A stretch of 64,000 bases of DNA from Chamaelirium japonicum (Eukaryota; Streptophyta; Magnoliopsida; Liliales; Melanthiaceae): contig OX393557.1 in the NCBI GenBank assembly GCA_947650365.1, forward strand, positions 30,621,783 through 30,685,782, read 5' to 3'. The translations under genes and the position numbers were made by a program. Each line of letters begins with the position of its first letter. The stretch's first letter is position 1. The notes below the pieces were generated by a model. That model ran no database searches. It was not told the origin of the DNA and saw only the letters and a program-made list of their open reading frames with translations. Below are positions 10,339 through 42,960 of this stretch, piece after piece.

Positions 10339-11486
10339 TCGTACGAACAAATTAGAATGAATTAGAATGGATCGTACGAATGAATTAGAATGGACCTTAC
10401 GAATCAATTAGAATGGATCGTACGAATGAATTAGAATGGATCGTACGAATGAATTAGAATTGATACATTCGTGCGAATGAATTAGAATGGATCGGACGAA
10501 TGAATTAGAATGGATCGTACGAATGAATTAGAATGGATCATATGAATTCATTAGAATGGTTACATTCATGCGAATGAATTAGAATGGATCGTACGAATGG
10601 ATTAGAATGGATCGTACGAATGGATTAGAATGGATACATTCGAGCGAATGAATTTGAATGGATCGTACGAATGAATTAGAAAGGATGGTACGAATGGATT
10701 AGAATGGATCCTACGAATGGATTAGAATGGATACCTTTGTGCATATGAATAAGAATGGATCGTATGAATGAATTAGAATGGACCGTAGAATGGATCGTAC
10801 GAATGAGTTAGAACGAATTAGAATGGATCGTACGAATGAATTAGAATAGATCATAGGAATGAATTAGAATGGATCGTGCAAATGAATTAGAATGGATACA
10901 TTTGTACGAATGAATTAGAATGGATCGTACGAATGAATTAGAATGGATCGTACGAATGAATTAGAATGGATCATACGAATGAGTAAGAATGGATCGTACG
11001 AATGAAATAGAATGGATTGTACGAATGAATTAGAATGGATCGTACGAATGAATTAGAATGGATCGTGTGAAAGAATTAGAATGGATTGTATGAATGAATT
11101 AGAATGGATCATAAGAATGAATTAGAATGGATCGTGCGAATGAATTCGAATGGATCGTACGAATGAATTAGAATGGATCGTACGAATGAATTAGAATGGA
11201 TACATTCGTGCGAATAAATTAGAATGGATACATTCGTGCGAAAGAATTAGAATAGATCGTATGAATTAATTAGAATGGGTCCTATGAATGAATTAGAATG
11301 GATCGTGCGAATGAATTAGGATGGATCGTACGAATGAATTAGAATGTATCGTGCTAACGAATTAGAATTGATCGAACGAATTAATTAGCATGGATCGTGC
11401 TAATGAATTAGAATGGAACGTACGAATGAATTAGAATGGATCGTGTAAAAGAATTAGAATGGATTGTATGAATGAATTAGAATGAA
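10339..11486 (+). repeat. 23-bp satellite, plus block leading into HOR A
   Basis: Plus polarity, holding one copy of the variant cassette (about 10,559-10,747). Its last 600 bp or so resemble the end of HOR A units, including the GTGCTAATGAATTAG variants just before the GAATTC switch, so it is probably the remains of a preceding HOR A unit. Confidence 0.93.
10559..10747 (+). repeat. Variant cassette, copy 3
   Basis: Same order of variant units, ending GATACCTTTGTGCATATG. Confidence 0.85.
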
Positions 11487-14400
11487 TTCGTACGATCCAT
11501 TCGAATTCATTCGCACGATCCATTCTAATTCATTCATACGATCCATTCTAATTCATTCATACAATCCATTCTAATTCTTTCACACGATCCATTCTAATTC
11601 ATTCGTAGGATCCATTCTAATTCATTCGTACAATCTATTCTATTTCATTCGTACGATCCAGTCTTACTCATTCGTATGATCCATTCTAATTCATTCGGAC
11701 GAATGTATCCATTCTAATTTATTCGTACGATCCATTCTAATTCATTCGTACGATCCATTCTAATTCATTCGTATGATCCATTCTTACTCATTCGTATGAT
11801 CCATTGTAATTCATTCGTACGATCCATTCTAATTCATTCGTACGATCCATTCTAATTCATTCGCACAATCTATTCTAATTCATTCGTACGATCCATTCTA
11901 ATTCATTCGTACGATCGTACGAATGAATTAGAATGGATCGTACGGAATGAATTAGAATGGATTGTATGAATGAATTAGAATGGATACATTCGTGCGAATG
12001 AATTAGAATGGATCATACGAATGAGTAAGAATGGATCGTACGAATGAAATAGAATGGATTGTACGAATGAATTAGAATGGGTCGTACGAATGAATTAGAA
12101 TGGATCACGTGAAAGAAATAGAATGCATTGTATGAATGAATTAGAATGGATCGTATGAATGAATTAGAATGGATCATGCGAATGAATTCGAATGGATCGC
12201 ATGATCCATTCGAATAGAATGGATCGTATGAATTAATTAGAATGGATCGGGCGAATGAATTAGAATGGATCGTATGAATGAATTAGAATGGATCGTATGA
12301 ATGAATTAGAATGGATCGTGCGAATGAATTAGAATGGATCGTACGAATGAATTAGAATGGATCGTACTAATGAATTAGAATGGATCATACAAATGAATTA
12401 GAATGGATCATACGAATGAGTAAGAATGGATCGTACGAATGAAATAGAATGGATTGTACGAATGAATTAGAATGGATACATTCGTGCGAATGAATTAGAA
12501 TGGATCGTACGAATGAACTAGAATGGTTCGTACGAATGAATTAGAATGGATCATACGAATGAATTAGAATGGATCTTACGAATGAATTAGAATGGATCGT
12601 ACGAATGAATTAGAATGGATCGTACGAATGAATTAGAATGGATACATTCGTGCGAATGAATTAGAATGGATCGGACGAATGAATTAGAATGGATCGTACG
12701 AATGAATTAGAATGGATCGTACGAATGAATTAGAATGGATCGTACGAATAAATTAGAATGGATACATTCGTCCGAATGAATTAGAATGGATCATACGAAT
12801 GAGTAAAAATGGATCGTACGAATGAAATAGAATAGATTGTACGAATGAATTAGAATGGATTATTATGAATGAATTAGAATGGATACATTCGTGCGAATGA
12901 ATTAAAATGGATCGTACCAATGAGTAAGAATGGATCGTACGAATGAAATAGAATGGATTGTGCGAATGAATTAGAATGGATTGTACGAATGAATTAGAAT
13001 GGATCGTACGAATGAATTAGAATGGATCCTATGAATGAATTAGAATGGATCGTGCGAATGAATTAGAATGGATCGTACGAATGAATTAGAATGGATCGTG
13101 CTAATGAATTAGAATTGATCGAACGAATGAATTAGAATGGATACATTCGTGCGAATGAATTAGAATGGATCGGACGAATGAATTAGAATGGATCGTACGA
13201 ATGAGTAAGAAAGGATCGTACGAATGAAATAGAATAGATCGTACGAATGAATTAGAATGGATCGTACAGAGGAATTAGAATGGATCGTATGAATGAATTA
13301 AAATGGATATATTCGTGCAAATGAATTAGAATGGATCGTATGAATGTATTAGAATGGATCGTATGAGTGAATTAGAATGGATCGTACGAATGAATTAGAA
13401 TGGATCATATGAATGAATTAGAATGGATACATTCGTGTGAATGAATTAGAATGAATCGTATGAATGAATTAGAATAGATTTTGTGAATGAATTAGAACTG
13501 ATCGTACGAATGAATTACATTGGATACATTCGTGCGAATGAATTAGAATGTATTGTATGAATGAATTAGAATGGATCCAATGAATGAATTAGAATGGATC
13601 GTGCGAATGAATTAGAATGGATCGTACGAATGAATTAGAATGGATCGTGCTAATTAATTAGAATTGATCGGACGAATGAATTAGCATGGATCGTGCTAAT
13701 GAATTAGAATGGAACGTACGAATGAATTAGAATGGATCATGTGAAAGAATTAGAATGGATTGTATGAATGAATTAGAATGAATTCGTACGATCCATTCGA
13801 ATTCATTCGCATGATCCATTCTAATTGATTCATACGATCCATTCTAATTCATTCATACAATCCATTCTAATTCTTTCACACGATCCATTCTAATTCTTTC
13901 GTAGGATCCATTCTAATTCATTCGTACAATCTATTCTATTTCATTCGTACGATCCATTCTTACTCATTCGTATGATCCATTCTAATTCATTCGGACGAAT
14001 GTATCCATTCTAATTTATTCGTACGATCCATTCTAATTCATTCGTACGATCCATTCTAATTCATTCGTACGATCCATTCTAATTCATTCGTCCGATCCAT
14101 TCTAATTCATTCGCACGAATGTATCCATTCTAATTCATTCATACGATCCATTCTAATTCATTCGTACGATCCATTCTAATTCATTCGTAAGATCCATTCT
14201 AATTCATTCATACGATCCATTCTAATTCATTCGTACGATCCATTCTAATTCATTCGCACGAACGTATCCATTCTAGTTCATTCGTACGATCCATTCTAAT
14301 TCATTCATACAATCCATTCTAATTCATTCGCACGAATGTATCCATTCTAATTCATTCGTACGATCAGTTCTAATTCATTCACAAAATCTATTCTAATTCA

Positions 14401-17295
14401 TTCATACGATCCATTCTAATTCATTCACACGAATGTATCCATTCTAATTCATTCATACGATCCATTCTAATTCATTCGTACGATCCATTCTAATTCACTC
14501 ATACGATCCACTCTAATACATTCATACAATCCATTCTAATTCATTTGCAGGAATATATCCATTCTAATTCATTCGTACGATCCATTCTAATTCCTTCGTA
14601 CGATCCATTCTAATTCATTCGTACGATCTATTCTAATTCATTCATACGATCCATTCTAATTCATTCGTACGATCCATTCTAATTCCTTCGTACGATCCAT
14701 TCTAATTCATTGGTACGATCCATTCTAATTCATTCATACAATCCATTCTAATTCTTTCACACGATCCATTCTAATTCATTCGTACGATCCATTCTAATTC
14801 ATTCGTGCAATCCATTCTATTTCATTCGTACGATCCATTCTTACTCATTCGTACGATCCATTCTAATTCATTCACATGAATGTATCCATTCGTACGAATG
14901 AATTAGAATAGATTGTACGAATGAATTAGAATGGATCGTACGAATTAATTAGAATGGATCGTACGAAGGAATTAGAATGGATCGTACGAATGAATTAGAA
15001 TGGATCGTACGAATAAATTAGAATGGATACATTTGTGCGAATGAATTAGAATGGATCGTACGAATGAATTAGAATGGATCGTATGAATGAATTCGAATGG
15101 ATCGTACGAATGAATTAGAATGGATCGTGCGAATGAATTAGAATGGATCGTACAAATGAATTAGAATGGATCGTGTGAAAGAATTAGAATGGATCGTACG
15201 AATGAATTAGAATGGATCGTACGAATGAATTAGAATGGATCGTACGAATGAATTAGAATGGATACATTCTTGCGAATGAATTAGAATGGATCGTGCGAGT
15301 GAATTAGAATGGATCGTATGAATGAATTAGAATGGATCGTGCGAATGAATTCGAATGGATCGTACGAATGAATTAGAATGGATCGAACCAATGAGTAAGA
15401 ATGGATCGTACGAATGAATTAGAATGGATCGTATGAATGAATTAGAATGGATCGTACGAATGAATTAGAATGGATCGTGCGAATGGATTAGAATGGATCG
15501 TACGAATGAATTAGAATGGATCGTACGAATGAACTAGAATGGATACATTCGTGCGAATGAATTAGAATGGATCGTACGAATGAATTAGATTGGATACATT
15601 CGTGCGAATGAATTAGAATGGATTGTGCGAATGAATAAGAACAGATCGTGCAAATGAATTAGAATGGATCGTACGAATGAATTAGAATGGATCGTACGAA
15701 TGAATTAGAATGGATACATTCGTGCGAATGAATTAGAATGGATCGGACGAATGAATTAGAATGGATCGTACGAATGGATTAGAATGGATCGTACGAATGG
15801 ATTAGAATGGATACATTCGAGCGAATGAATTTGAGTGGATCGTACGAAAGAATTAGAATGGATCGTACGAATGGATTAGAATGGATCCTACGAATGGATT
15901 AGAATGGATACCTTTGTGATCGGACGAATGAATTAGAATGGATCGTACGAATGAATTAGAATGGATCGTACGAATGAATTAGAATGGATTGTATGAATGA
16001 ATTAGAATGGATCATACGAAGGAATTAGAATGGATCGTACGAATGAATTAGAATGGATCGTACGAATGAACTAGAATGGATCGTACGAATGAATTAGAAT
16101 GGATCGTACGAATAAATTAGAATGGATACATTCGTCCGAATGAATTAGAATGGATCATACGAATGAGTAAGAATGGATCGTATGAATGAAATATAATAGA
16201 TTGTACGAATGAATTAGAATGGATCCTACGAATGAATTAGAATGGATCATGTGAATGAATTAGAATGGATATATTCGTCCGAATGAATTAGAATGGATCA
16301 TACGAATGAGTAAGAATGGATCGTGCGAATGAATTAGAATGGATCGTACGAATGAATTAGAATGGATATATTCGTTCAAATGAATTAGAATGGATCGTAT
16401 GAATGTATTAGAATGGATCGTATGAGTGAATTAGAATGGATCGTACGAATGAATTAGAATTGATCGTACGAATGAATAAGAATGGATCGTGCGAATGAAT
16501 TAGAATGGATCGTACGAATGAATTAGAATGGATCGTACGAATGAACTAGAATGGATACATTCGTGCGAATGAATTAGAATAGATCGTACGAATGAATTAG
16601 AATGGATCATACGAATGAATTAGAATGGATACATTCGTGCGAATGAATTAGAATGGATCGGATGAATGAATTAGAATGGATCGTACGAATGAATTAGAAT
16701 GGATCGTACGAATGAATTAGAATGGATCGTATGAATGAATTAGAATGGATACATTCGTGCGAATGAATTAGAATTGATCGTACGAATGAATTAGAATGGA
16801 TTGTGCGAATGAATTAGAATGGATCGTACGAATGAATTAGAATGGATCGTACGAATGAACTAGAATGGACACATTCGTGCGAATGAATTAGAATGGATCG
16901 TACGAATGAATTAGAATGGATTGTACGAATGAATTAGAATGGATCTTACGAATGAATTAGAATGGATCGTACGAATGAATTAGAATGGATCGTACGAATG
17001 AATTAGAATGGATGCATTCGTGCGAATGAATTAGAATAGATACATTCGTGCGAAAGAATTAGAATAGATCGTATGAATGAATTAGAATGGGTCCTATGAA
17101 TGAATTAGAATGGATCGTGCGAATGAATTAGAATGGATCGTACGAATGAATTAGAATGTATCGTGCTAATGAATTAGAATTGATCGAACGAATTAATTAG
17201 CATGGATCGTGCTAATGAATTAGAATGGAACGTACGAATGAATTAGAATGGATCGTGTGAAAGAATTAGAATGGATTGTATGAATGAATTAGAAT
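11484..17295. repeat. HOR A copy 1 (long form, 5,812 bp)
   Basis: Measured from one GAATTC switch to the equivalent switch of the next copy. Internal layout: minus 11,487-11,914; plus 11,915-13,782; minus 13,783-14,893; plus 14,894-17,298. The minus-to-plus palindrome centre lies 430 bp from the start, as in the other three copies. The 24-bp near-palindrome sits 705 bp in, against 797 bp in the other copies; the 92-bp difference equals four monomers. An extra segment of about 1.5 kb (roughly 15,380-17,010) makes this copy longer than copies 2 and 3. Confidence 0.9.
11885..11944. repeat. 60-bp perfect palindrome at polarity switch
   Basis: Perfect inverted repeat with no spacer, centred on GATC at 11,913-11,916 with core CGTACGATCGTACG. 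Each arm is a whole monomer plus flanking bases. Marks the minus-to-plus switch of HOR A copy 1. Confidence 0.95.
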
Positions 17296-20200
17296 GAATT
17301 CGTACGATCCATTCGAATTCATTCGCACGATCCATTCTAATTCATTCATACTATCCATTCTAATTCATTCATACAATCCATTCTAATTCTTTCACACGAT
17401 CCATTCTAATTCATTCGTAGGATCCATTCTAATTCATTCGTACAATCTATTCTATTTCATTCGTACGATCCATTCTTACTCTTTCATATGATCCATTCTA
17501 ATTCATTCGGACGAATGTATCCATTCTAATTTTTTCGTACGATCCATTCTAATTCATTCGTACGATCCATTCTAATTCATTCGTATGATCCATTCTTACT
17601 CATTCGTATGATCCATTGTAATTCATTCATACGATCCATTCTAATTCATTCGTACGATCCATTCTAATTCATTCGCACAATCTATTCTAATTCATTCGTA
17701 CGATCCATTCTAATTCATTCGTACGATCGTACGAATGAATTAGAATGGATCGTACGAAATGAATTAGAATGGATTGTATGATTAAATTAGAATGGATATA
17801 TTCGTGCGAATGAATTAGAATGGATCATACGAATGAGTAAGAATGGATCGTACGAATGAAATAGAATGGATTGTACGAATGAATTAGAATGGATCGTACA
17901 AATGAATTAGAATGGATCGTACGAATAAATTAGAATGGATCATACGAATGAGTAAGAATGGATTGTACGAATGAATTAGAATGGATCGTACGAATGAATT
18001 AGAATGGATCGTGTGAAAGAAATAGAATGCATTGTATGAATGAATTAGAATGGATCGTATGAATGAATTAGAATGGATCGTGCGAATGAATTCGAATGGA
18101 TCGCATGATCCATTCGAATAGAATGAATCGTATGAATTAATTAGAATGGATCAGGCGAATGAATTAGAATGGATCGTATGAATGAATTAGAATGGATCGT
18201 ATGAATGAATTAGAATGGATCGTGCGAATGAATTAGAATGGATCGTACGAATGAATTAGAATGGATCGTACGAATGAATTAGAATGGATCATACGAATGA
18301 GTAAGAATGGATCGTACGAATGAAATAGAATGGATTGTACGAATGAATTAGAATGGATACATTCGTGCGAATGAATTAGAATGGATCGTACGAAGGAATT
18401 AGAATGGATCGTACGAATGAATTAGAATGGATCGTACGAATGAATTAGAATGGATCTTACGAATGAATTAGAATGGATCATACGAATGAATTAGAATGGA
18501 TCGTACGAATGAATTAGAATGGATACATTCGTGCGAGTGAATTAGAATGGATCGGACGAATGAATTAGAATGGATCGTACGAATGAATTAGAATGGATCG
18601 TACGAATGAATTAGAATGGATCGTACGAATAACTTAGAATGGATACATTCGTCCGAATGAATTAGAATGGATCATACGAATGAGTAAGAATGGATCGTAC
18701 GAATGAAATAGAATAGATTGTACGAATGAATTAGAATGGATTCGTACGAATGAATTAGAATGGATACATTCGTGCGAATGAATTAGAATGGATCGTACCA
18801 ATGAGTAAGAATGGATCGAACGAATGAAATAGAATGGATTGTGCGAATGAATTAGAATGGATTGTATGAATGAATTAGAATGGATCGTACGAATGAATTA
18901 GAATGGATCCTATGAATGAATTAGAATGGATCGTGCGAATGAATTAGAATGGATTGTACGAATGAATTAGAATGGATCGTGCTAATGAATTAGAATTGAT
19001 CGAACGAATGAATTAGAATGGATACATTCGTGCGAATGAATTAGAATGGATCGGACGAATGAATTAGAATGGATCGTACGAATGAGTAAGAATGGATCGT
19101 ACGAATGAAATAGAATAGATCGTACGAATGAATTAGAATGGATCGTACGAAGGAATTAGAATGGATCGTACGAATGAATTAAAATGGATATATTCGTGCA
19201 AATAAATTAGAATGGATCTTGTGAATGTATTAGAATGGATCGTATGAGTGAATTAGAATGGATCGTACGAATGAATTAGAATGGATCGTATGAATTAATT
19301 AGAATGGATACATTCGTGAGAATGAATTAGAGTGGATCATATGAATGAATTAGAATAGATTTTGTGAATGAATTAGAACTGATCGTACGAATGAATTAGA
19401 ATGGATACATTCGTGCGAATGAATTAGAATGGATTGTATGAATGAATTAGAATGGATCCTATGAATGAATTAGAATGGATCGTGCGAATGAATTAGAAAG
19501 GATCGTACGAATGAATTAGAATGGAGTGTGCTAATTAATTAGAATTGATCGAACGAATGAATTAGCATGGATCGTGCTAATGAATTAGAATGGAACGTAT
19601 GAATGAATTAGAATGGATCGTATGAAAGAATTAGAATGGATTGTATGAATGAATTAGAATGAATTCGTACGATCCATTCGAATTCATTCGCACAATCCAT
19701 TCTAATTCATTCATACGATCCATTTTAATTCATTCATACAATCCATTCTAATTCTTTCACACAATCCATTCTAATTCTTTCGTAGGATCCATTCTAATTC
19801 ATTCGTACAATCTATTCTATTTCATTCGTACGATCCATTCTTACTCATTCGTATGATCCATTCTAATTCATTCGGACGAATGTATCCATTCTAATTTATT
19901 CGTACGATCCATTCTAATTCATTCGTACGATCCATTCTAATTCATTCGTCCGATCCATTCTAATTCATTCGCACGAATGTATCCATTCTAATTCATTCGT
20001 ACGATCCATTCTAATTCATTCGTACGATCCATTCTAATTCATTCGTAAGATCCATTCTAATTCATTCATACGATCCATTCTAATTCATTCGTACGATCCA
20101 TTCTAATTCATTCGCACGAATGTATCCATTCTAGTTCATTCGAACGATCCATTCTAATTCATTCATACAATCCATTCTAATTCATTCGCACGAATGTATC

Positions 20201-21704
20201 CATTCTAATTCATTCGTACGATCAGTTCTAATTCATTCACAAAATCTATTTTAATTCATTCATACGATCCATTCTAATTCATTCACACGAATGTATCCAT
20301 TCTAATTCATTCATACGATCCATTCTAATTCATTCGTACGATCCATTCTAATTCACTCATACGATCCATTCTAATACATTCATACGATCCATTCTAATTC
20401 ATTTGCACGAATATATCCATTCTAATTCATTCGTACGATCCATTCTAATTCATTCGTACGATCTATTCTAATTCATTCATACGATCCATTCTAGTTCATT
20501 CGTACGATCCATTCTAATTCCTTCGTACGATCCATTCTAATTCATTCGTACGATCCATTCTAATTCATTCATACAATCCATTCTAATTCTTTCACACGAT
20601 CCATTCTAATTCATTCGTACGATCCATTCTAATTCATTCGTGCAATCCATTCTATTTCATTCGTACGATCCATTCTAACTCATTTGTACGATCCATTCTA
20701 ATTCATTCACACGAATGTATCCATTCGTACGAATGAATTGGAATAGATTGTACGAATGAATTAGAATGGATCATACAAATTAATTAGAATGGATCGTACG
20801 AAGGAATTAGAATGGATCGTACGAATGAATTAGAATGGATCGTACGAATGAATTAGAATGGATACATTCGTGCGAATGAATTAGAATGAATTAGAATGGA
20901 TCGTACGAATGAATTAGAATGGATACATTTGTGCGAATGAATTAGAATGGATCGTACGAATGAATTAGAATGGATCGTATGAATGAATTAGAATGGATCG
21001 TACGAATGAATTAGAATGGATCGTGCGAATGAATTAGAATGGATCGTACGAATGAATTAGAATGGATCGTGTGAAAGAATTAGAATGGATCGTATGAATG
21101 AATTAGAATGGATCGTGCGAATGAATTAGAATGGATCGTACGAATGAATTAGAATGGATACATTCGTGCGAATGAATTAGAATGGATCGTGCGAGTGAAT
21201 TAGAATGGATCATATGAATGAATTAGAATGGATCGTGCGAATGAATTCGAATGGATCGTACGAATGAATTAGAATGGATACATTCGTGTGAAAGAATTAG
21301 AATGGATTGTATGAATGAATTAGAATGGATCATATGAATGAATTAGAATGGATCGTGCGAATGAATTCCAATGGATCGTACGAATGAATTAGAATGGATC
21401 GTACGAATGAATTAGAATGGATACATTCGTGCGAATGAATTAGAATGGATACATTCGTGCGAAAGAATTAGAATAGATCGTATGAATGAATTAGAATGGG
21501 TCCTATGAATGAATTAGAATGGATCGTGCGAATGAATTAGAATGGATCGTACGAATGAATTAGAATGTATCGTGCTAATGAATTAGAATTGATCGAACGA
21601 ATTAATTAGCATGGATCGTGCTAATCAATTAGAATGGAACGTACGAATGAATTAGAATGGATCGTGTGAAAGAATTAGAATGGATTGTATGAATGAATTA
21701 GAAT
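17296..21704. repeat. HOR A copy 2 (short form, 4,409 bp)
   Basis: Layout: minus 17,299-17,726; plus 17,727-19,663; minus 19,664-20,728; plus 20,729-21,707. The second GAATTC switch is 2,365 bp from the first. Order and spacing of rare variant monomers match copies 1, 3 and 4, which shows a true higher-order repeat and not merely local monomer similarity. Confidence 0.92.
17695..17758. repeat. 64-bp perfect palindrome at polarity switch
   Basis: Same switch point in HOR A copy 2, centred between 17,726 and 17,727. Symmetry extends 32 bases on each side before the first mismatch. Confidence 0.95.
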
Positions 21705-22105
21705 GAATTCGTACGATCCATTCGAATTCATTCGCACGATCCATTCTAATTCATTCATATGATCCATTCTAATTCATTCATACAATCCATTCTAATTCTT
21801 TCACACGATCCATTCTAATTCATTCGTAGGATCCATTCTAATTCATTCGTACAATCTATTCTATTTCATTCGTACGATCCATTCTTACTCATTCGTATGA
21901 TCCATTCTAATTCATTCGGACGAATGTATCCATTCTAATTTATTTGTACGATCCATTCTAATTCATTCGTACGATCCATTCTAACTCATTCGTATGATCC
22001 ATTCTTACTCATTCGTATGATCCATTGTAATTCATTCGTACGATCCATTCTAATTCATTCGTACGATCCATTCTAATTCATTCGCACAATCTATTCTAAT
22101 TCATT

Positions 22106-22165
22106 CGTACGATCCATTCTAATTCATTCGTACGATCGTACGAATGAATTAGAATGGATCGTACG
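22106..22165. repeat. 60-bp perfect palindrome at polarity switch
   Basis: Same switch point in HOR A copy 3, centred between 22,135 and 22,136. Confidence 0.95.
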
Positions 22166-25933: not shown

Positions 25934-25935
25934 TT

Positions 25936-25953
25936 TAGCACCGTCTGTGGGAT
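25936..25953 (+). other. Primer-binding-site-like segment of the gypsy element
   Basis: Two bases after the 5' LTR the sequence reads TAGCACCGTCTGTGGGAT, resembling the GCGCCGTCTGTGGGA stretch found just inside the 5' LTR of many Tat-like plant gypsy elements. I cannot assign the tRNA without an alignment. Confidence 0.6.
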
Positions 25954-27460: not shown

Positions 27461-27601
27461 CCCGCAGAAGCCCTCCCGGTGGTCGCTGGAAGGACGGCGA
27501 ACTGGCACCTGCCTCCGGGACCCGGGGAGCGGGATTTCACCGAACGACGGAGGTTTCAACAAAGAAGTTAGCTCGGAAGCTCGGCGCAGAAGAGAGCCCG
27601 C

Positions 27602-28246
27602 ATGATCTACAATGTGCAGTCCGCCGATTGTGCGTACTTAAAGCAAGACCGGGATCCTCAGAGGCAGCCAGTGGGCGACCTTGAGCTTCCCGGGGTAGTC
27701 CGCCGTTGTGCGGACTTAAAGCAAGACCGGGATCCTCAGAGGCAGCCAGTGGGCGACCTTGAGCTTCCCGGGGTAGTCCGCCGTTGCGCGGACTCAAAGC
27801 AAGATCGGGATCCTCAGAGGAAGCCAGTGGGCGACCTTGAGCTTCCCGGGGCAGTCCGCCGTTGTACGGACTTAAAGCAAGACCGGGATCCTCAGAGGCA
27901 GCCAGTGGGCGACCTTGAGCTTCCCGGGGTAGTCCACCGTTGCGCGGACTTAAAGCAAGACCGGGATCCTCAGAGGCAGCCAGTGGGCGACCTTGAGCTT
28001 CCCGGGGCAGTCCGCCGTTGTGCGGACTTAAAGCAAGACCGGGATCCTCAGAGGCAGCCAGTGGGCGACCTTGAGATTCCCGGGGAAGTCCGCTGCCTAG
28101 TGGACTCTAAACCTAACCAGGATCCTTCGCGTTCACCTGCCATGAACGGAAGCATCCTGGCGTTGGCATACCCCTCGAAGGGCGAGCCCGCCGAACAGGA
28201 TCATCGAGGGAAATTAACCGGGCAGGGGGCAGCTAGCACTTATTAG
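27602..28246 (+). CDS. ORF of 26-residue repeats downstream of gag
   Basis: 214 codons starting at a real ATG 140 bp after the gag-like ORF. It consists of about six tandem 78-bp units, so the reading frame is kept, each giving a 26-residue module around KQDRDPQRQPVGDLELPG, followed by a non-repetitive tail of about 50 residues. The modules are rich in Asp, Arg, Gln and Pro, have no hydrophobic core and look disordered. I do not recognise a family. It might be a separate product, a detached Gag-like tail, or a noncoding minisatellite that happens to stay open. AATAAA motifs at 28,259 and 28,390 could end a plus-strand transcript before the convergent antisense gene. Confidence 0.45.
   Translation: MIYNVQSADCAYLKQDRDPQRQPVGDLELPGVVRRCADLKQDRDPQRQPVGDLELPGVVRRCADSKQDRDPQRKPVGDLELPGAVRRCTDLKQDRDPQRQPVGDLELPGVVHRCADLKQDRDPQRQPVGDLELPGAVRRCADLKQDRDPQRQPVGDLEIPGEVRCLVDSKPNQDPSRSPAMNGSILALAYPSKGEPAEQDHRGKLTGQGAASTY
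27617..28110 (+). repeat. 78-bp tandem array inside the gypsy element
   Basis: Units begin near 27,641, 27,719, 27,797, 27,875, 27,953 and 28,031 (AAGCAAGACC anchor, exact 78-bp spacing), with a degenerate seventh at 28,109. Units are nearly identical, pointing to recent amplification. Confidence 0.92.
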
Positions 28247-28570
28247 TTTCCTTTTAAAAATAAAAATGGTTTAAGTCTCTGAGTGTAGGGAAGTTTTTGA
28301 AGTCTTTTGGTTCGCTTAAACGTTTTCCGGGCTCAGGGACTATTGAGTTTTTGCGAGCATGCCGAGTTTTTCGTTTGCATATACTTTAAAATAAAAAGGT
28401 TGAATCGAATTAGCTGCCTCGCCCGGGGTATCACTCTCGAGATCGTTGCGAACTCCTAGAGCGGACTCATAAGTGGCACAGAGAAAGAAAGAAATGCATA
28501 TGCGAATTCAAAAAGATTTCATTTCATTGATTAAACCAAAAATTACAAAGGCAGTTGAGAGGCTGCGAGC
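28247..28570. other. Convergent intergenic spacer in the gypsy element
   Basis: AT-richer, about 320 bp, between the plus-strand repeat ORF and the 3' end of the minus-strand gene. It holds AATAAA-like motifs on the plus strand (28,259-28,264 and 28,390-28,395). No gene seen. Confidence 0.5.
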
Positions 28571-31143
28571 TCAAGGCTTGCTAGTCTCCGCTCCACTGCC
28601 GTCCCCTCGGCGCCGCTTCTTCGACCCTTCGGTCCTGTATTTCTCCACAGCGGCCAGGGCGCCTTTCTTGAGGAGATCGTCCAGCTGGGCTTGGATGCGA
28701 CCTTGCTGAGCTCGAAGGCCTTCGGCGTGCGTCTCCTTCAGGGCAGCGATCTCTGTCTTCAGAGCAGCGACCTCGCCTTGAAGTTGAGCCGCCTCCCGCT
28801 GTGCGACCTCCCTGGCGGACACAGCCTCGTCTCTCTCCACCTTAGCTTTGAGGAGGGCGGTAGCGGACAGGCCTTTGGCTGCCTCGGCCATGGTGAGGCC
28901 TGACACCAGGGTTTTGACCCTGTGGTGCAGTGCCTCGGACTCCGCCCTCAGCTCCTCGGAGCCCTTAGCTCGTTGAAGCTCATGGATGTGCTCGTCCACC
29001 TTGCGCTCAGACCCCCGAAGGGAATCGTCGAACAAGGCGGCAAGCGGCCTCCCGGCCCCAGCGACCTCCGAGACCAGCGCCTGGCTCTGCTTCTCCGCCT
29101 GCATAAGGAAGGTGAAAAAGTTAGCAAAAAGCAAAACTTAGCATTCTTGGCGGAAGGGTCAGAGAGAGCAAGATTTACCTCGGCCAGGCGTTCGCTTATT
29201 GAAGCGAAGGGGGCTCGGGCGAAGACGTTGCGGCCCAGCAGCTGCCGCGCGTAGTAGGGCGCCCTCCCCTCCTCCGCATAGGAGCCCGCGCTGGGACCCC
29301 CCGGAGCTTCAGTAGCAGGGGGCACGCCGGGAAGAGTGGAGGCTGACACCTCCCCCGGGCGATCTCCGGCTGCTGGCGGGCTTGGAGGGTCCACCTCGAC
29401 CCCCTTGGCCTCCGACTCCGAGCTGGAGGACTCGGAGTCGGAGCCGATATCCACGAAGGAGGGGGACCTGTAGATCAAGTCCCCCGTATCCTCCGGGAAG
29501 TCCGCCTTCTCCTTACCCCGTCCAGATGACGAGGGCGGAGGAGCGGATATGGAAGCTGTAGGGGGCGTAGAGGTCGCAGCGGCGGCGGGGGTTTCTCGCC
29601 TACTGTCCTCGCAGGAAATTTCCCGAGGAGCAGAGGGTGGCACCCCGCCCTGCTGGACCTCCACCCCGGCGGGAGGAGGTGGAAGCTCCTGCCCGCTCGG
29701 TCCCGCCCCTGGTGCGGGAGCTGATGGAACTGCGGGCTTCTCCACTTGGGCAGGAGCGACGGGCTCCGCCCGAAGAGCTTGAGGGACGGGCCCCTCCTCC
29801 TCAAAGCCTGGCGCCTCCTCCTCGGAGTCCGTCCAACTGGGCTCCGAGTCCAAGCCTGCCTCCTCCAGCACTTTTCGCCGCTGCTCCGTCTGGGTGTTCG
29901 AAGGCGCGGGCCCCGCGCGTTTGGCCTTCTTCTTCCCACGGGCCTCCATCTCCGGCGTCAGCACTGCTACACAAAGAGGGACGATCAGATCGCCCGGGAA
30001 GTAGCCCATTAATATCTGGGCCATCCCGGATTCGACTTCCGCCATGGTTAGCGGGAGGTCGATGTTCGGGTCGTCGGGTTCGACCATTTGGATCTTGTGG
30101 CGGACAATTAGAGTTGGGGCAGAAGGCTGACCTGGGGCGGCGTCCGGGCGAGGAGGTTGCGGAGGAGCGGAGGCTTCACCCTGGCGGAGCATCTCCATGG
30201 TGTCGGGGTCGTTGAGGCGGATGGGCGAAGCCCGCCTCCGGACCGTCTTCTTGCGGGGGTTGCCTCCCGAGCCCCCTGCCCCCTTGCTGGCCACTTTGGA
30301 GGGAGGAGCGTTCTGCATCAGCGGAATAGCGCCGACCTCCTCCTCCTTCTTTTTCCGGACGATCTTCTGCTTCAACAGAATAGCGCCGGTCTTCCCGTCC
30401 TTCAGCTGGAAGGCAAAGTCGGGAGCGGTGATCTTCTCCAGAGTCCGCCCGCCGAGGTAGTGGAGGATCGCCTCGTCCAGAGATCGCTCTCGGTCGGGAG
30501 CGATGCACTTCTTCTTCCCCACCTTGTAGAAGGAGATCTCCCGAAAGACCGCCGTCGGGGGAACCCCGGGGTGAGCAGGGACTCCGCTGTGCCGCCCGCG
30601 CCAGTCGCCGACCGCCACGAAAGGATAGTCCTTCCAGTGGCGGTCCTTGCTCTCGATGGTAGAGAAGGGGAGCACCTCACCAAGTCGCCCGACGAGGTAG
30701 AAGTAGCCGCAGCCCGCGGAGCTGAAGACCGGCGAGGGCTTGAGGAGCCATTTTTTGAGCAGATAGCTCAATGGGATCCTCGCCTTTAGGGCGGTCTCCA
30801 GCTGGGACAACCCGTAAAGTATCCCCCAGGAGTTTCCTGAGAGCTGAGCAGGGCAAAGCCCCGTCAACTCCAGGAGCTCCCCGGCGAGATGACTCAGGGG
30901 GAACCACAGCCCGGACCACAGTAGCCCGACAGAAGCTACTGTGCCCTGGGGCGGCCTCCCCGAGAGTGGCATCTCGGTGACAAGGATCTCCTGAGGGAGA
31001 TCGATCGCCGCCCGGATACTGTCCCCAACGGGCACCCCGCTCGGGTTTTGCAGCCAGACCACCGCCCTCTCTGCGGCGGGCTCAGAATCTTGGGCGGCAG
31101 CAGCAGCAGCAACAGCAGCAGCAACGTCGGAAGCGGAGGCCAT
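28571..31143 (-). CDS. Antisense ORF of a plant gypsy element (PF04195-like), with one intron
   Basis: Encoded opposite to gag. The open frame extends upstream to 31,203, but the first ATG is at 31,143 (MASASDV) in a good ATGG context. Segment 1 (to about 29,179) begins with an Ala-rich stretch. It then has a domain matching the 'putative gypsy type transposon' proteins of plants: LWFPLSHLAGELLELTGLCP, AQLSGNSWGILYGLSQLE, and KDRHWKDYPFVAVGDW. A long Pro/Ser/acidic-rich disordered region follows. Segment 2 (about 29,098-28,571) is Ala/Glu/Gln-rich coiled coil with a basic tail (KKRRRGDG) that could be a nuclear signal. Between them is an 80-bp intron-like gap with GT and AG ends and a pyrimidine tract. 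Function is unknown; antisense ORFs of this kind are known from Tat-lineage elements. Confidence 0.75.
29099..29178 (-). other. Probable intron of the antisense ORF
   Basis: 80 bp with donor GAG|GTAAAT and acceptor TTATGCAG after a T/C-rich tract, typical of short plant introns. Both flanking segments have coding character, and their reading phases agree across the gap. Confidence 0.75.
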
Positions 31144-31257
31144 TAAAGCAAAAAGGCTAAGGCGAGCTAGAAGCAAAAGTGAGCAAAGGCGAGCTGAAAG
31201 CAAAGAAGGAAGGGAGAGCTGTTTTTCATGCAGCGGTAAAAATCGCCCCCCATCCCC

Positions 31258-31265
31258 TATTTATA
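31258..31265 (-). promoter_or_regulatory. TATA box of the antisense gene
   Basis: On the minus strand the sequence reads CCTATAAATAGGGG, a near-ideal plant TATA box, 115 bp upstream of the ATG at 31,143. This predicts a 5' leader of about 85 nt. Upstream on the same strand are G-boxes CACGTG at 31,376-31,381 and within a 14-bp palindrome GAGACACGTGTCTC (31,453-31,466). Confidence 0.7.
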
Positions 31266-31589
31266 GGCAAGTGAGAGACAGGTGAATCGATCCGCAGTTA
31301 ATGCCCAAGCGCGCTCGGCGAGGCGACGTGACGGCAATCGAAGCGACAGCTTGCTTCTTTCCAATCGTCAAGCGCCACGTGGGCCACGCGTGGAAAAGGC
31401 TGCGCCGACTCCGACACTGTCATTTACTGACAAAAGAAGGGCGAATGAGGAGGAGACACGTGTCTCGCGCCGATCGGGATCTCATGATGAGATTCGCTGT
31501 ATCAGCATTGAGCCTCGCGCCGCATTTAAGGTGAAGCGACCGTTGGAGATTTGGTGCGATACCCAAGTCACAAGACCGCCCACGGCTGG

Positions 31590-32192
31590 TGCCCGAAGCT
31601 CGCCCGATGCAGACCCTGACCGCTTGTGACAAGCTCGCACCGGAAGGAGATCGCTCGTGGCTGACGCTCCCGGCCCGCCCAGCGTTTGTGAAATGCTGGG
31701 AGTCAAAGCTCTCGGCGCAGACCGCTCGCGGCAAGTGCCCGCAGCTCGCCCGACGCAGACCCTGACCGCGTGTGACAAGATCGCACCGGAAGGAGATCGC
31801 TCGTGGCTGACGCTCCCGGCCCGCCCAGCGTTTGTGAAATGCTGGGAGTCAAAGCTCTCGGCGCAGACCGCTCGCGGCAGGTGCCCGCAGCTCGCCCGAG
31901 GCAGACCCTGACCGCGTGTGACAAGCTCGCACCGGAAGGAGATCGCTCGTGGCTGACGCTTCCGGCCCGCCCAGCGTTTGAGAAGTACTGGCAGTCAAAG
32001 CTCTCGGCGCAGACCGCTCGCGGCAGGTACCCGCAGCTCGCCCGACGCAGACCCTGACCGCGTGTGACAAGCTCACACCGGAAGGAGATCGCTCGTGGCT
32101 GATGCTCGTGGCCCGCCCTGCGTTTGTGAAATACTGACAGTCAAAGCTCTCGGCGCAGACCGCCCATGGTTGGTGCCCGCATCTCCCCGGGT
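31590..32192 (+). repeat. 146-bp tandem array before the 3' LTR
   Basis: Four units anchored on GCAGACCCTGACCGC at 31,609, 31,755, 31,901 and 32,047, spacing exactly 146 bp, followed by a degenerate fifth start. Overlapping open frames through it repeat with the array and are not genes. It lies upstream of the antisense promoter. Confidence 0.93.
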
Positions 32193-32294
32193 GAAGGTCG
32201 CAAGTGACTAGAACTCCCAATTCGACCGTCGTGTGCAATAAGACTCCTGAGCAAGCGCCAAAGTCTCCTTGGTCGCTCCCTCAGGAGGGGGTAA
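32193..32294 (+). other. Pre-LTR segment with polypurine tract
   Basis: Short unique segment ending in AGGAGGGGGTAA directly before the 3' LTR, the position and composition expected for the plus-strand primer. Confidence 0.75.
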
Positions 32295-33351
32295 TGTTGG
32301 GGGTAGCTGAAATCTGCCCTGGAGTTCGCCCCCCCCCCCCCCCCCCTCCGGTGCTCACCAAATCACCTTGACAGGGAGCGAGATCCACATTGGGCTGAAG
32401 GGGCCTAGGCCAAGGACACTCATAGGAGCTCGCCTAAGCTCGCTGGAGCTCGCCTGAGCTCGCCCAGGAGCCCGCCTAAAGCTCGCTCAGGAGCTCGCCA
32501 AGATCGCCCCAGAGCTCGCCTAAGCTCGCCCAGGAGCTCGCCAAGCCCGCGCAAGAACTCGCTTACAGTGGTAGCGGGAGTTAGACCGTCACGCATAACA
32601 AAGACATCGGCACCGCAAACGCACCTAGCTCATACAGGAGCTCGCCCCTATCTCATGCAGGAGCTCGCCCAAGCTCGTTCAGGAGCTCGCCTAAGCTCTC
32701 TCAGGAGCTCGTCCAAGCTCGCTCAGGAGTTCGCCAAACTCGCTCAGGAGCTCGCCTAAGCTCTCTCGTGAGCTCGCCTAAGCTCTCTCGTGAGCTCGCC
32801 TAAGCTCTCTCAGGAGCTCGCCCAAGCTCGCCCCGACCCTTGTTTATCGAAGAGGTTGCTCCCGCGAGGTCCGACTCTTGATAAATATGGGCGAAAGGAC
32901 GGAGCAGTGCCGGGTGAACTGGCTTTTGCTTCCTCCCTGAAACCGCCCGGACTTGAACATTCCAGAATGGCCACCTGGCCGCGACAAGAAAGATTCCCTC
33001 CCCTACTCGAACCGTCTGGCAGGCTTGACGACAGAATGTCAGGGCGCGAGTACCAAGGACTGTCAGACACACGCGAGCCGGAACGTGGGGGTCTAGAAGG
33101 CCCTGGAAGAATCTCCACGTGTCGGGGCACGGTAGGCCGCCGATTGCTATAAATGCTCGCCCCCAGGCTCCATAGTACAGGTTCGAAATCCTTTTCCCAA
33201 CCACTTTGGTATACCGCAGCTCGCCGTTGTGCCACCGTGACTGACTTGAGCTTCGGAGGGTCTGCGCTCCTAAGGGAGCGAGCCGTTCTCACGTTCCCTT
33301 TTCTTTGTCTTGCAGGCAGCCCGCACGGACCAGGGAAAAATCCCCCGAACA
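32295..33351 (+). repeat. 3' LTR of the gypsy element
   Basis: 1,057 bp. It is longer than the 5' LTR mainly through a longer C run near 32,330 and about 10 extra bases in the GAGCTCGCC repeats. Substitutions between the two LTRs are mostly transitions. Confidence 0.96.
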
Positions 33352-35044
33352 CGATCCATTCTAATTCCTTCGTACGATCCATTCTAATTCATTCGTACGA
33401 TCTATTCTAATTCATTCATACGATCCATTCTAATTCATTCGTACGATCCATTCTAATTCCTTCGTACGATCCATTCTAATTCATTCGTACGATCCATTCT
33501 AATTCATTCATACAATCCATTCTAATTCTTTCACACGATCCATTCTAATTCATTCGTACGATCCATTCTAATTCATTCGTGTAATCCATTCTATTTCATT
33601 CGTACGATCCATTCTTACTCATTCGTACGATCCATTCTAATTCATTCACACGAATGTATCCATTCGTACGAATGAATTAGAATAGATTGTACGAATGAAT
33701 TAGAATGGATCGTACGAATTAATTAGAATGGATCATACGAAGGAATTAGAATGGATCGTACGAATGAATTAGAATGGATCGTACGAATGAATTAGAATGG
33801 ATACATTCGTGCGAATGAATTAGAATGAATTAGAATGGATCGTACGAATGAATTAGAATGGATACATTTGTGCGAATGAATTAGAATGGATCGTACGAAT
33901 GAATTAGAATGGATCGTATGAATGAATTAGAATGGATCGTACGAATGAATTAGAATGGATCGTGCGAATGAATTAGAATGGATCGTACGAATGAATTAGA
34001 ATGGATCGTGTGAAAGAATTAGAATGGATCGTATGAATGAATTAGAATGGATCGTGCGAATGAATTAGAATGGATCGTACGAATGAATTAGAATGGATAC
34101 ATTCGTGCGAATGAATTAGAATGGATCGTGCGAGTGAATTAGAATGGATCGTATGAATGAATTAGAATGGATCGTGCGAATGAATTCGAATGGATCGTAC
34201 GAATGAATTAGAATGGATACATTCGTGTGAAAGAATTAGAATGGATTGTATGAATGATATAGAATGGATCATATGAATGAATTAGAATGGATCGTGCGAA
34301 TGAATTCGAATGGATCGTACGAATGAATTAGAATGGATCGTACGACTGAATTAGAATGGATGCATTCGTGCGAATGAATTAGAATGGATACATTCATGCG
34401 AAAGAATTAGAATAGATCGTATGAATGAATTAGAATGGGTCCTATGAATGAATTAGAATGGATCATGCGAATGAATTAGAATGGATCGTACTAATGAATT
34501 AGAATGTATCGTGCTAATGAATTAGAATTGATCGAACGAATTAATTAGCATGGATCGTGCTAATGAATTAGAATGGAACGTACGAATGAATTAGAATGGA
34601 TCGTGTGAAAGAATTAGAATGGATTGTATGAATGAATTAGAATGAATTCGTACGATCCATTCGAATTCATTCGCACGATCCATTCTAATTCATTCATACG
34701 ATCCATTCTAATTCATTCATACAATCCATTCTAATTCTTTCACACGATCCATTCTAATTCATTCGTAGGATCCATTCTAATTCATTCGTACAATCTATTC
34801 TATTTCATTCGTACGATCCATTCTTACTCATTCGTATGATCCATTCTAATTCATTCGGACGAATGTATCCATTCTAATTTATTCGTACGATCCATTCTAT
34901 TTCATTCGTACGATCCATTCTAATTCATTCGTATGATCCATTCTTACTCATTCGTATGATCCATTGTAATTCATTCGTACGATCCATTCTAATTCATTCG
35001 TACGATCCATTCTAATTCATTCGCACAATCTATTCTAATTCATT

Positions 35045-35104
35045 CGTACGATCCATTCTAATTCATTCGTACGATCGTTCGAATGAATTAGAATGGATCG
35101 TACG
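35045..35104. repeat. Near-perfect palindrome at polarity switch
   Basis: Same switch point in HOR A copy 4, with core CGTACGATCGTTCG. One pair near the centre is mismatched. Confidence 0.9.
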
Positions 35105-38100
35105 GAATGAATTAGAATGGATTGTATGAATGAATTAGAATGGATACATCCGTGCGAATGAATTAGAATGGATCATACGAATGAGTAAGAATGGATCGTA
35201 CGAATGAAATAGAATAGATTGTACGAATGAATTAGAATGGATCGTACAAATGAATTAGAATGGATCGTACGAATAAATTAGAATGGATCATACGAATGAG
35301 TAAGAATGGATTGTACGAATGAATTAGAATGGATCGTACGAATGAATTAGAATGGATCGTGTGAAAGAAATAGAATGCATTGTATGAATGAATTAGAATG
35401 GATCGTCTGAATGAATTAGAATGGATCGTGCGAATGAATTCGAATGGATCGCATGATCCATTCGAATAGATTGGATCGTATGAATTAATTAGAATGGATC
35501 GGGCGAATGAATTAGAATGGATCGTATGAATGAATTAGAATGGATCGTATGAATGAATTAGAATGGATCGTGCAAATGAATTAGAATGGATCGTACGAAT
35601 GAATTAGAATGGATCGTACGAATGAATTAGAATGGATCATACGAATAAGTAAGAATGGATCGTACGAATGAAATAGAATGGATTGTACGAATGAATTAGA
35701 ATGGATACATTCGTGCGAATGAATTAGAATGGATCGTACGAATGAATTAGAATGGATCGTACGAATGAATTAGAATGGATCGTACGAATGAATTAGAATG
35801 GATCTTACGAATGAATTAGAATGGATCGTACGAATGAATTAGAATGGATCGTATGAACGAATTAGAATGGATACATTCGTGCGAATGAATTAGAATGGAT
35901 CCGACGATTGAATTAGAATGGATCGAACGAATGAATTAGAATGGATCGTACGAATGAATTAGAATGGATCGTACGAATAAATTAGAATGGATGCATTCGT
36001 CTGAATGAATTAGAATGGATCATACGAATGAGTAAGAATGGATCGTACGAATGAAATAGAATAGATTGTACGAATGAATTAGAATGGATTCGTACGAATG
36101 AATTAGAATGGATACATTCGTGCGAATGAATTAGAATGGATCGTACCAATGAGTAAGAATGAATCGTACGAATGAAATAGAATGGATTGTGCGAATGAAT
36201 TAGAATGGATTGTACGAATGAATTAGAATGGATCGTACGAATGAATTAGAATGGATCCTATGAATGAATTAGAATGGATCGTGCGAATGAATTAGAATGG
36301 ATCGTACGAATGAATTAGAATGGATCGTGCTAATGAATTAGAATTGATCGAACGAATGAATTATAATGGATACATTCGTGCGAATGAATTAGAATGGATC
36401 GGACGAATGAATTAGAATGGATCGTACGAATGAGTAAGAATGGATCGTACGAATGAAATAGAATAGATCGTACGAATGAATTAGAATGGATCGTACGAAG
36501 GAATTAGAATGGATCGTACGAATGAATTAAAATGGATATATTCGTGCAAATGAATTAGAATGGATCGTATGAATGTATTAGAATGGATCGTATGAGTGAA
36601 TTAGAATGGATCGTACGAATGAATTAGAATGGATCGTATGAATGAATTAGAATGGATACATTCGTGTGAATGAATTAGAATGGATCGTATGAATGAATTA
36701 GAATAGATTTTGTGAATGAATTAGAACTGATCGTACGAATGAATTAGAATGGATACATTCGTGCGAATGTATTAGAATGGATAGTATGAATGAATTAGAA
36801 TAAATCCTATGAATGAATTAGAATGGATCGTGCGAATGAATTAGAATGGATCGTGCTAATTAATTAGAATTGATCGAACGAATGAATTAGCATGGATCGT
36901 GCTAATGAATTAGAATGGAACGTACGAATGAATTAAAATGGATCGTGTGAAAGAATTGGAATGGATTGTATGAATGAATTAGAATGAATTCGTACGATCC
37001 ATTCGAATTCATTCGCACGATCCATTCTAATTCATTCATACGATCCATTCTAATTCATTCATACGATCCATTCTAATTCTTTCACACGATCCATTCTAAT
37101 TCTTTCGTAGGATCCATTCTAATTCATTCGTACAATCTATTCTATTTCATTCGTACGATCCATTCTTACTCATTCGTATGATCCATTCTAATTCATTCGG
37201 ACGAATGTATCCATTCAAATTTATTTGTACGATCCATTCTAATTTATTCGTACGATCCATTCTAATTCATTCGTACGATCCATTCTAATTCATTCGTCCG
37301 ATCCATTCTAATTCATTCGCACGAATGTATCCATTCTAATTCATTCGTACCATCCATTCTAATTCATTCGTACGATCCATTCTAATTCATTCGTAAGATC
37401 CATTCTAATTCATTCATACGATCCATTCTAATTCATTCGTACGATCCATTCTAATTCATTCGCACGAATGTATCCATTCTAGTTCATTCGTACGATCCAT
37501 TCTAATTCATTCATACAATCCATTCTAATTCATTCGCACGAATGTATCCATTCTAATTCATTCGTACGATCAGTTCTAATTCATTCACAAAATCTATTCT
37601 AATTCATTCATACGATCCATTCTAATTCATTCACACGAATGTATCCATTCTAATTCATTCATACGATCCATTCTAATTCATTCGTACGATCCATTCTAAT
37701 TCACTCATACGATCCATTCTAATACATTCATACGATCCATTCTAATTCATTTGCACGAATATATCCATTCTAATTCATTCGTACGATCCATTCTAATTCC
37801 TTCGTACGATCCATTCTAATTCATTCGTACGATCTATTCGAATTCATTCATACGATCCATTCTAGTTCATTCGTACGATCCATTCAAATTCCTTCGTACG
37901 ATCCATTCTAATTCATTCGTACGATCCATTCTAATTCATTCATACAATCCATTCTAATTCTTTCACACGATCCATTCTAATTCATTCGTACGATCCATTC
38001 TAATTCATTTGTGCAATCCATTCTTTTTCATTCGTACGATCCATTCTTACTCATTCGTACGATCTATTCTAATTCATTCACACGAATGTATCCATTCGTA

Positions 38101-39075
38101 CGAATGAATTAGAATAGATTGTACGAATGAATTAGAATGGATCGTACGAATTAATTAGAATGGATCGTACGAAGGAATTAGAATGGATCATACGAATGAA
38201 TTAGAATGGATCGTACGAATGAATTAGAATGGATACATTCGTGCGAATGAATTAGAATGAATTAGAATGGATCGTACGAATGAATTAGAATGGATACATT
38301 TGTGCGAATGAATTAGAATGGATCGTACGAATAAATTAGAATGGATCGTATGGATGAATTAGAATGGATCGTACGAATGAATTAGAATGGATCGTGCGAA
38401 TGAATTAGAATGGATCGTACGAATGAATTAGAATGGATCGTGTGAAAGAATTAGAATGGATCGTACGAATGAATTAGAATGGATCGTGCGAATGAATTAG
38501 AATGGATCGTACGAATGAATTAGAATGGATACATTCGTGCGAATGAATTAGAATGGATCGTGCGAGTGAATTAGAATGGATCGTATGAATGAATTAGAAT
38601 GGATCGTGCGAATGAATTCGAATGGATCGTACGAATGAATTAGACTGGATCGTACCAATGAGTAAGAATGGATCGTACGAATGAATTAGAATGGATCGTA
38701 TGAATGAATTAGATTGGATCGTACGAATGAATTAGAATGGATCATGCGAATGGATTAGAATGGATCGTACGAATGAATTAGAATGGATCGTACGAATGAA
38801 CTAGAATGGATACATTCGTGCGAATGAATTAGAATGGATCGTACGAATGAATTAGAATGGATACGTTCGTGCGAATGAATTAGAATGGATTGTGCGAATG
38901 AATAAGAACAGATCATGCGAATGAATTAGAATGGATCGTACGAATGAATTAGAATGGATCGTACGAATGAATTAGAATGGATACATTCGTGCGAATGAAT
39001 TAGAATGGATCGGACGAATGAATTAGAATGGATCGTACGAATGAATTAGAATGGATCAGATGAATGAGTTAGAAT

Positions 39076-39260
39076 GGTTACATTCATGCGAATGAATTAG
39101 AATGGATCGTACGAATGGATTAGAATGGATCGTACGAATGGATTAGAATGGATACATTCGAGCGAATGAATTTGAATGGATCGTACGAAAGAATTAGAAT
39201 GGATCGTACGAATGGATTAGAATGGATCCTACGAATGGATTAGAATGGATACCTTTGTGA
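39076..39260 (+). repeat. Variant cassette, copy 4 (shortened end)
   Basis: Within the extra block of HOR A copy 4. It ends at GATACCTTTGTG and then joins a GATCGG unit. A partial counterpart occurs near 15,770-15,920 in copy 1. Confidence 0.8.
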
Positions 39261-40401
39261 TCGGACGAATGAATTAGAATGGATCGTACGAATGAATTAG
39301 AATGGATCGTACGAATGAATTAGAATGGATCATACGAAGGAATTAGAATTGATCGTACGAATGAATTAGAATGGATCGTACGAATGAACTAGAATGGATC
39401 GTACGAATGAATTAGAATGGATCGTACGAATAAATTAGAATGGATACATTCGTCCGAATGAATTAGAATGGATCATACGAATGAGTAAGAATGGATCGTA
39501 CGAATGAAATAGAATAGATTGTACGAATGAATTAGAATGGATCCTACGAATGAATTAGAATGGATCATGTGAATGAATTAGAATGGATATATTCATCTGA
39601 ATGAATTAGAATGGATCATACGAATGAGTAAGAATGGATCGTGCGAATGAATTAGAATGGATCGTACGAATGAATTAGAATGGATATATTCGTGCAAGTG
39701 AATTAGAATGGATCGTATGAATGTATTAGAATGGATCGTATGAGTGAATTAGAATGGATTGTACGAATGAATTAGAATTGATCGTACGAATGAATTAGAA
39801 TGGATCGTGCGAATGAATTAGAATGGATCGTACAAATGAATTAGAATGGATCTTACGAATGAACTAGAATGGATACATTCGTGCGAATGAATTAGAATAG
39901 ATCGTACAAATGAATTAGAATGGATCGTACAAATGAATTAGAATGGATACATTCGTGCGAATGAATTAGAATGGATCGGATGAATGAATTAGAATGGATC
40001 GTACGAATGAATTAGAATGGATCGTACGAATGAATTAGAATGGATACATTCGTGCGAATGAATTAGAATTGATCGTACGAATGAATTAGAATGGATTGTG
40101 CGAATGAATTAGAATGGATCGTACGAATGAATTAGAATGGATCGTACGAATGAACTAGAATGGATACATTCGTGCGAATGAATTAGAATGGATCGTACGA
40201 ATGAATTAGAATGGATCGTATGAATGAATTAGAATGGATCTTACGAATGAATTAGAATGGATCGTACGAATGAATTAGATTGGATCGTACGAATGAATTA
40301 GAATGGATACATTCGTGCGAATGAATTAGAATGGATCGGACGAATGAATTAGAATGGATCGTACGAATGAATTAGAATGGATCAAATGAAGGAATTAGAA
40401 T

Positions 40402-42936: not shown

Positions 42937-42960
42937 TAATGAATTAGAATGGATCGTACG
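42937..42960 (+). repeat. Micro-inversion of one monomer
   Basis: A single plus-polarity monomer, GCTAATGAATTAGAATGG then ATCG, between minus blocks. Confidence 0.88.

Follow-up and report, generated by a model that had tools for sequence, protein, structure and literature searches.

The closest described counterpart of the locus analyzed here, a 64,000-bp stretch of DNA (positions 30,621,783 to 30,685,782 of contig OX393557.1, assembly GCA_947650365.1, Chamaelirium japonicum; hereafter the window, with positions counted from its first base), is the satellite of the holocentric lilioid Chionographis japonica. Its variants Chio1 and Chio2 (23 and 28 bp, the 23-bp monomer being dominant) are a 5-bp deletion and one substitution apart, and the centromere units of this species are described as mixed forward and reverse Chio arrays, with a higher-order repeat (HOR) cluster, CL73, and CENH3 enrichment (PMC10264360). 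The 23-bp Chio monomer has TTCGTACGA in common with Chama, the 60-bp centromeric satellite of Chamaelirium luteum in the sister genus, which also shows HOR structure but is described as consistently oriented arrays without interspersed retrotransposons (PMC12722358). Outside plants, the satellites TmSat1 and TmSat2 of the beetle Tribolium madens form inverted subarrays with highly conserved inversion sites, and the TmSat2 repeat unit contains inverted subunits; according to the same article, such macro-dyad symmetries had until then been documented only in Tribolium (PMC13081366). What is new at the present locus is a fixed series of strand switches within the unit of a HOR (HOR-A), with one shared junction (J), whereas mixed orientation is already known. 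The passages on Chio that were consulted give no HOR with a fixed series of reversals and no shared junctions (PMC10264360; PMC12722358), and none of the literature matches listed describes, in its title or the start of its abstract, a fixed reversal series within the HOR unit of a plant. The surprise is nevertheless smaller than the initial annotation, made from the letters of the stretch alone, had supposed, because Chio centromere units are known as forward/reverse mixtures with a HOR cluster, and inverted subunits and conserved inversion sites have been published for T. madens.

The window was segmented by a two-strand Viterbi procedure against a 28-bp template, with an optional 5-bp deletion allowed. 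By this measure, 45.4 kb are 23/28-bp satellite (25,650 bases plus, 19,726 minus), and 18,507 of the 18,624 non-satellite bases lie in two inserts. Satellite blocks are 91–96% identical to the template, except for one 34-bp run (100%). The shortest opposite-strand block returned is a 34-bp minus segment within a plus block (2,393–2,426). Monomers were cut from the segmentation and counted only if 23 bp (1,584) or 28 bp (244) long, other lengths being left out; their consensuses are GAATGAATTAGAATGGATCGTAC and GAATGAATTAGAATGGATACATTCGTGC, to which they are on average 93.7% and 95.4% identical, respectively. The 23-bp consensus contains TTCGTACGA, lacks 5 bp (ACATT) of the 28-bp one, and differs from it by one substitution (GTAC versus GTGC). 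With a 23-bp main and a 28-bp minor monomer, intermingled plus and minus arrays of both variants, and long terminal repeat (LTR) elements inside the array, as reported for the (peri)centromeric regions carrying Chio (PMC10264360; PMC12722358), the satellite agrees with what has been published on the Chio1/Chio2 type, at the level of description. Its left part is the following feature (here and below, strand is given where the feature has one):

1–24,895: Chio-like 23/28-bp satellite array of mixed polarity, left part (Viterbi segmentation, monomer consensuses)

Viterbi runs yielded 35 strand switches in the window, 18 plus-to-minus and 17 minus-to-plus. Those between 11,485 and about 40,345 belong to four consecutive units, U1–U4, each with the block order minus, plus, minus, plus, and together constituting HOR-A:

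11,055–11,484, plus strand: tail of the preceding HOR-A unit, about 430 bp ahead of the first J (identity to the sequence ahead of the first J, pre-J1, of U4)
11,485–17,296: U1, long form, 5,812 bp (minus 430, plus 1866, minus 1106, plus 2410)
17,297–21,705: U2, short form, 4,409 bp (segmentation and alignment)
21,706–34,644: U3, short form, 4,478 bp without its retrotransposon (segmentation and alignment)
34,645–40,345: U4, long form, truncated ahead of the next J (identity to U1)

The initial annotation had proposed exactly such a fourfold series, anchored by two sets of GAATTC motifs, and the independent segmentation bore this out: all eight anchors are present at the positions given, and every one coincides with a plus-to-minus switch. 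Net spacings were likewise reproduced for the first set (5,812, 4,409, and 4,478) and the second (5,881, 4,432, and 4,432), once 8,461 bp, made up of the insert at 24,896–33,351 plus one CGATC target copy, had been subtracted from U3. As measured from U1 to U4, three blocks are of near-constant length (first minus, 430/430/430/435; first plus, 1866/1935/1958/1907; second minus, 1106/1060/1106/1106), whereas the fourth is variable (second plus, 2410/984/984/2589). The extension of the fourth block is mostly common to U1 and U4 at about 98%, and the proposed end of the HOR also proved sound, because identity between these two units is 98.3% until about 40,345 and 87.3% thereafter. On the left, the 11,055–11,484 tail matches the pre-J1 sequence of U4 at 0.94–1.00 in all eight 50-bp bins from −400 to 0, and at 0.60 at −450.

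The likeness between units is not due to chance. Unit cores (from the first J to junction B, see below) are 97.8–98.4% identical in register (pairwise, 97.81, 98.27, 97.97, 98.13, 98.09, and 98.35%), with indels of only 23 or 92 bp, that is, whole monomers. When the first plus block of U2 was compared with that of U3, the best 150-bp tiles averaged 0.978 (12 tiles), as against 0.896 (range 0.70–0.96; 12 tiles) for one same-polarity control outside the HOR (2,427–4,426). Identity between units (about 98%) thus exceeds that of monomers to their own consensus (93.7% and 95.4%), as in a HOR. Alpha-satellite-type HORs are, like HOR-A, multi-monomer units amplified at high identity; they normally keep one polarity, unlike HOR-A with its four switches per unit.

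All eight plus-to-minus switches of U1–U4 share a single breakpoint, J. The first and second anchors thus mark one and the same junction, which had been missed before, as had a second inverted-block HOR to the right. J also occurs on the opposite strand:

11,474–11,503, plus strand: J, plus-to-minus junction, GAATTAGAATG joined to AATTCGTACG; breakpoint also at 13,780, 17,296, 19,661, 21,705, 24,093, 34,644, and 36,986
41,365–41,385, 46,663–46,683, and 50,668–50,688, minus strand: inverted J (21-bp junction word without mismatch)
40,943–41,619, minus strand: the J1 region copied in inverted orientation, with its end at junction A (97.3–97.6% to all four units over 677 ungapped bp)

The eight HOR-A copies have both the breakpoint and flanking private variants in common and are 95–99% identical over ±150 bp. 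Over the same span, the inverted copies are 96–98% (41,374) and 85–88% (46,675 and 50,680) identical to those of HOR-A; the copies at 46,663 and 50,668 carry an extra 4-bp deletion next to the join. In total, 11 of the 18 plus-to-minus switches of the window have the J breakpoint (8 direct, 3 inverted), and the other seven are at most 85% identical to any J copy in either orientation. The conserved inversion sites of the Tribolium macro-dyads thus have a counterpart in J, with 95–99% identity among eight copies. Their two opposed subarrays, which tend to equal length, do not, HOR-A blocks measuring 430–435, 1866–1958, 1060–1106, and 984–2589 bp. The scale differs as well: T. madens has an about 110-bp element, a 704-bp monomer, and mostly two subarrays per array (PMC13081366), compared with a 4.4–5.8-kb HOR with four switches.

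The minus-to-plus switches of HOR-A fall into two further classes, A and B, and each unit contains a micro-reversal:

11,885–11,944: junction A, minus-to-plus; 60-bp perfect palindrome, joined at GATC next to TCGTACGA dyads
14,870–14,905: junction B, minus-to-plus; also at 20,721, 33,660, and 38,092
12,184–12,214: micro-reversal of roughly 15 bp within a plus block, near-palindrome ATTCGAATGGATC/GATCCATTCGAAT, one per unit (15 bp unassigned in U1 and U3; sequence inspected in all four)

Junction A recurs at 17,726, 22,135, and 35,079 (one base changed in the last), its four copies being 95–100% identical. Of the palindromes noted earlier 430 bp into the units, those of U1–U3 are without mismatch over 60, 64, and 60 bp, respectively, and that of U4 is interrupted by a single base. 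The near-palindrome placed at +797 is real in U2–U4; in U1, a 92-bp deletion shifts it to about +705. The segmentation also assigned no strand to stretches of 13–15 bp at 5,302–5,316 and 42,941–42,953, which may represent the same micro-reversal. The four copies of junction B are 97–98% identical, and an inverted one at 45,568 has a near-identical breakpoint and is 91–92% identical to the others. The segment 45,569–46,671 is 93.0–94.1% identical to the four units when aligned as an inverted J2–B block (J1 and J2 denoting the first and second J of a unit), compared with 88.8–91.3% for four control segments, which is only suggestive of an inverted copy of that block. Fifteen switches outside J, A, B, and the 45,569 copy (8 minus-to-plus, 7 plus-to-minus) are all less than 90% identical to those classes. 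The closest, at 9,067, is 86–88% identical to inverted B and 89% to 45,569, and its join differs in the alignment. Two plus-to-minus switches, at 8,520 and 9,417, resemble each other in inverted orientation (94%); they sit just inside the arms (7,863–8,466 and 9,471–10,074; 97% complementary, 1,004 bp apart) of a local inverted duplication at 7,863–10,074.

In a tree of the 11 J copies (570 columns, midpoint root), all four J1 copies fall into a single clade (100/98) separate from J2, and the inverted copy at 41,365 joins this J1 clade (98/96); the two HOR-B copies are separate (100/100), and the J2 copies lack resolved branching. J copies are not grouped by unit, and this, together with the J1 clade, indicates that the internal duplication of J, and with it the internal order of the module, most likely predates the multiplication of units, as predicted if the whole series was copied. 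The restricted span of J1/J2 homology (about −245 to about +320 bp) is as expected for an old internal duplication. The earlier claim that amplification copied the inverted series together is supported by the about 98% in-register identity, the same breakpoints, and the J1 clade; that the series was copied as a block, and the switches not made anew in each copy, appears well supported on these grounds. Alternatively, switches might recur at a hot spot in the monomer (e.g., at dyads such as TCGTACGA or AATT), in which case the units would owe their common order to convergence. The monomer is described as dyad-rich (PMC10264360), and some distinct joins share bases, such as GATC at junction A; but the best-fit search inflates this overlap relative to the null, so that the overlap test provides no evidence for a hot spot. 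Convergence is, moreover, very improbable in view of the same private variants flanking the HOR-A J copies, the single J1 clade across units, and the dissimilarity of the 15 remaining switches to the recurrent classes.

Block copying of the series also fits the architecture on the right of the window, as brought out in part by a self comparison (200-bp tiles, at least 93% identity) that covered everything outside about 12,901–42,400:

46,300–53,263, and again 63,321–64,000: HOR-B, second inverted-block HOR, period about 4,005 bp (self-alignment)

The HOR-B unit consists of one minus and one plus block. With 27 mismatches in 3,244 and two 23-bp indels, a full unit is 99.17% identical to the in-window part of the next. 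Behind a retrotransposon (TE2) the HOR resumes, 677 of 680 bases being identical (99.56%). The stretch ahead of HOR-B was considered as a further unit and rejected, being only 91.8% alike with many gaps. The inverted copy of the J1 region at 40,943–41,619 and HOR-B together indicate that modules on the left of the window have relatives of reversed orientation on its right.

Both HORs are interrupted by an LTR retrotransposon with a target-site duplication (TSD):

24,896–33,351: TE1, LTR retrotransposon, TSD CGATC, within the second minus block of U3 (LTRs, TSD, gag)
53,264–63,315: TE2, LTR retrotransposon, Ty1/copia-like, TSD GTACG, within HOR-B (LTRs, TSD)

The two LTRs of TE1 align over 1,038 positions with 22 mismatches (97.9% identity) and with gaps of 9 and 10. 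A Retrotrans_gag match (1.7e-08) is the sole domain recognized in the two of its open frames that were searched, a 751-aa frame on the other strand having no Pfam match; TE1 is possibly non-autonomous. It also contains 78-bp and 146-bp internal tandem repeats. The LTRs of TE2 (2,330 bp) are 98.28% identical, its coding region is broken by stops (longest stop-to-stop frame, 118 aa), and it gives only weak matches to RVT_2 (E 0.0019) and copia-gag (E 0.028), both below Pfam cut-offs. The HOR-B units around it (46,672–53,263 and 63,321–64,000) differ by 0.83% (27/3,244), and its LTRs by 1.72% (40/2,330; Fisher p 0.004); non-CpG divergence is 0.67% and 1.50%, respectively. This suggests that the satellite was homogenized after TE2 insertion, or that rates differ.

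Two retrotransposons with clean target duplications inside the units also bear on the question whether the reversals stem from the assembly, through fold-back chimeric reads or wrong joins. Misassembly is common in satellite arrays, and only assembled sequence was examined. Chimeras should, however, leave near-identical mirrored arms, and the arms at HOR-A junctions have mirror identities of 0.81–0.86, compared with 0.829 ± 0.043 for 60 random opposite-strand pairs. The same junction is, furthermore, present in HOR-A and HOR-B with diverged flanks, and mixed polarity has been published from a C. japonica HiFi assembly (PMC10264360). An artifact thus appears extremely improbable. Among all 35 switches, only one (10,348; 0.914) exceeds the 95th percentile of the random pairs (0.888), the maximum of which is 0.980.

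The most plausible history, in which confidence is good, is that rare switches made J, A, and B locally and that the whole module, with J duplicated, then multiplied to give HOR-A and HOR-B. The locus would belong to the centromeric satellite of a holocentric plant, probably Chionographis japonica or a close relative, and J, A, and B would stem from infrequent switches of strand in a local array, by inversion or by fold-back of opposite-strand monomers. The minus/plus/minus/plus module, with J already duplicated within it, would then have been multiplied in one piece by the usual routes of satellite amplification, whether unequal exchange, gene conversion, or replication-based copying, leading to HOR-A and the adjoining HOR-B with J inverted. 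Several points weigh against this history. The sample is small, four units and two HORs, all within 64 kb, and so is the tree, with bootstrap values not settled, J2 without resolution, and only a midpoint root. Nor does the sequence allow the origin of J to be reconstructed, because the arms of J are no more mirror-like than random; a fold-back origin with mirrored arms was considered and is not visible.

Whether the switches were passengers of this amplification, as seems probable, or were kept by selection can be approached through folding and conservation. Opposed neighbors could allow long hairpins or cruciforms that aid the loading of centromere proteins. Single strands of 300 nt centered on the 35 switches are indeed predicted to fold with −106.9 ± 17.8 kcal/mol, compared with −27.2 ± 6.8 in 60 random in-block windows, an about fourfold higher hairpin potential; conserved inversion sites have a proposed function in T. 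madens (PMC13081366), and Chio arrays coincide with CENH3 (PMC10264360). However, any opposite-strand join should give such folding energies, and the centromeric arrays of the sister genus Chamaelirium are described as consistently oriented (PMC12722358). Nor is conservation consistently higher at the junctions than in the remainder of the unit: pairwise, the copies differ by 0.010 at J1, 0.0175 at A, 0.030 at J2, and 0.030 at B, compared with 0.018 elsewhere, so that there is no consistent sign of special constraint on these neighborhoods. That selection keeps the switches is, on this evidence, quite improbable. A broader notion would make the polarity module the unit of centromere evolution in this holocentric lineage, with rare switches captured, inverted, and multiplied as cassettes, and with switch-bearing modules favored because their opposed blocks would enable folding into long hairpins that contribute to specifying centromere units; this would be attractive but is unlikely.

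Strand switches that were copied with their module, rather than made anew, are heritable markers. Since 11 of the window's 18 plus-to-minus switches are copies of J alone, such switches are usable like private alleles to trace the spread, inversion, and multiplication of modules. For C. japonica, 100 centromere units have been reported (PMC10264360). J-like switches could be used to trace modules among them, which would make the spread that has been proposed, by non-allelic conversion or inversion, directly testable with existing HiFi data.

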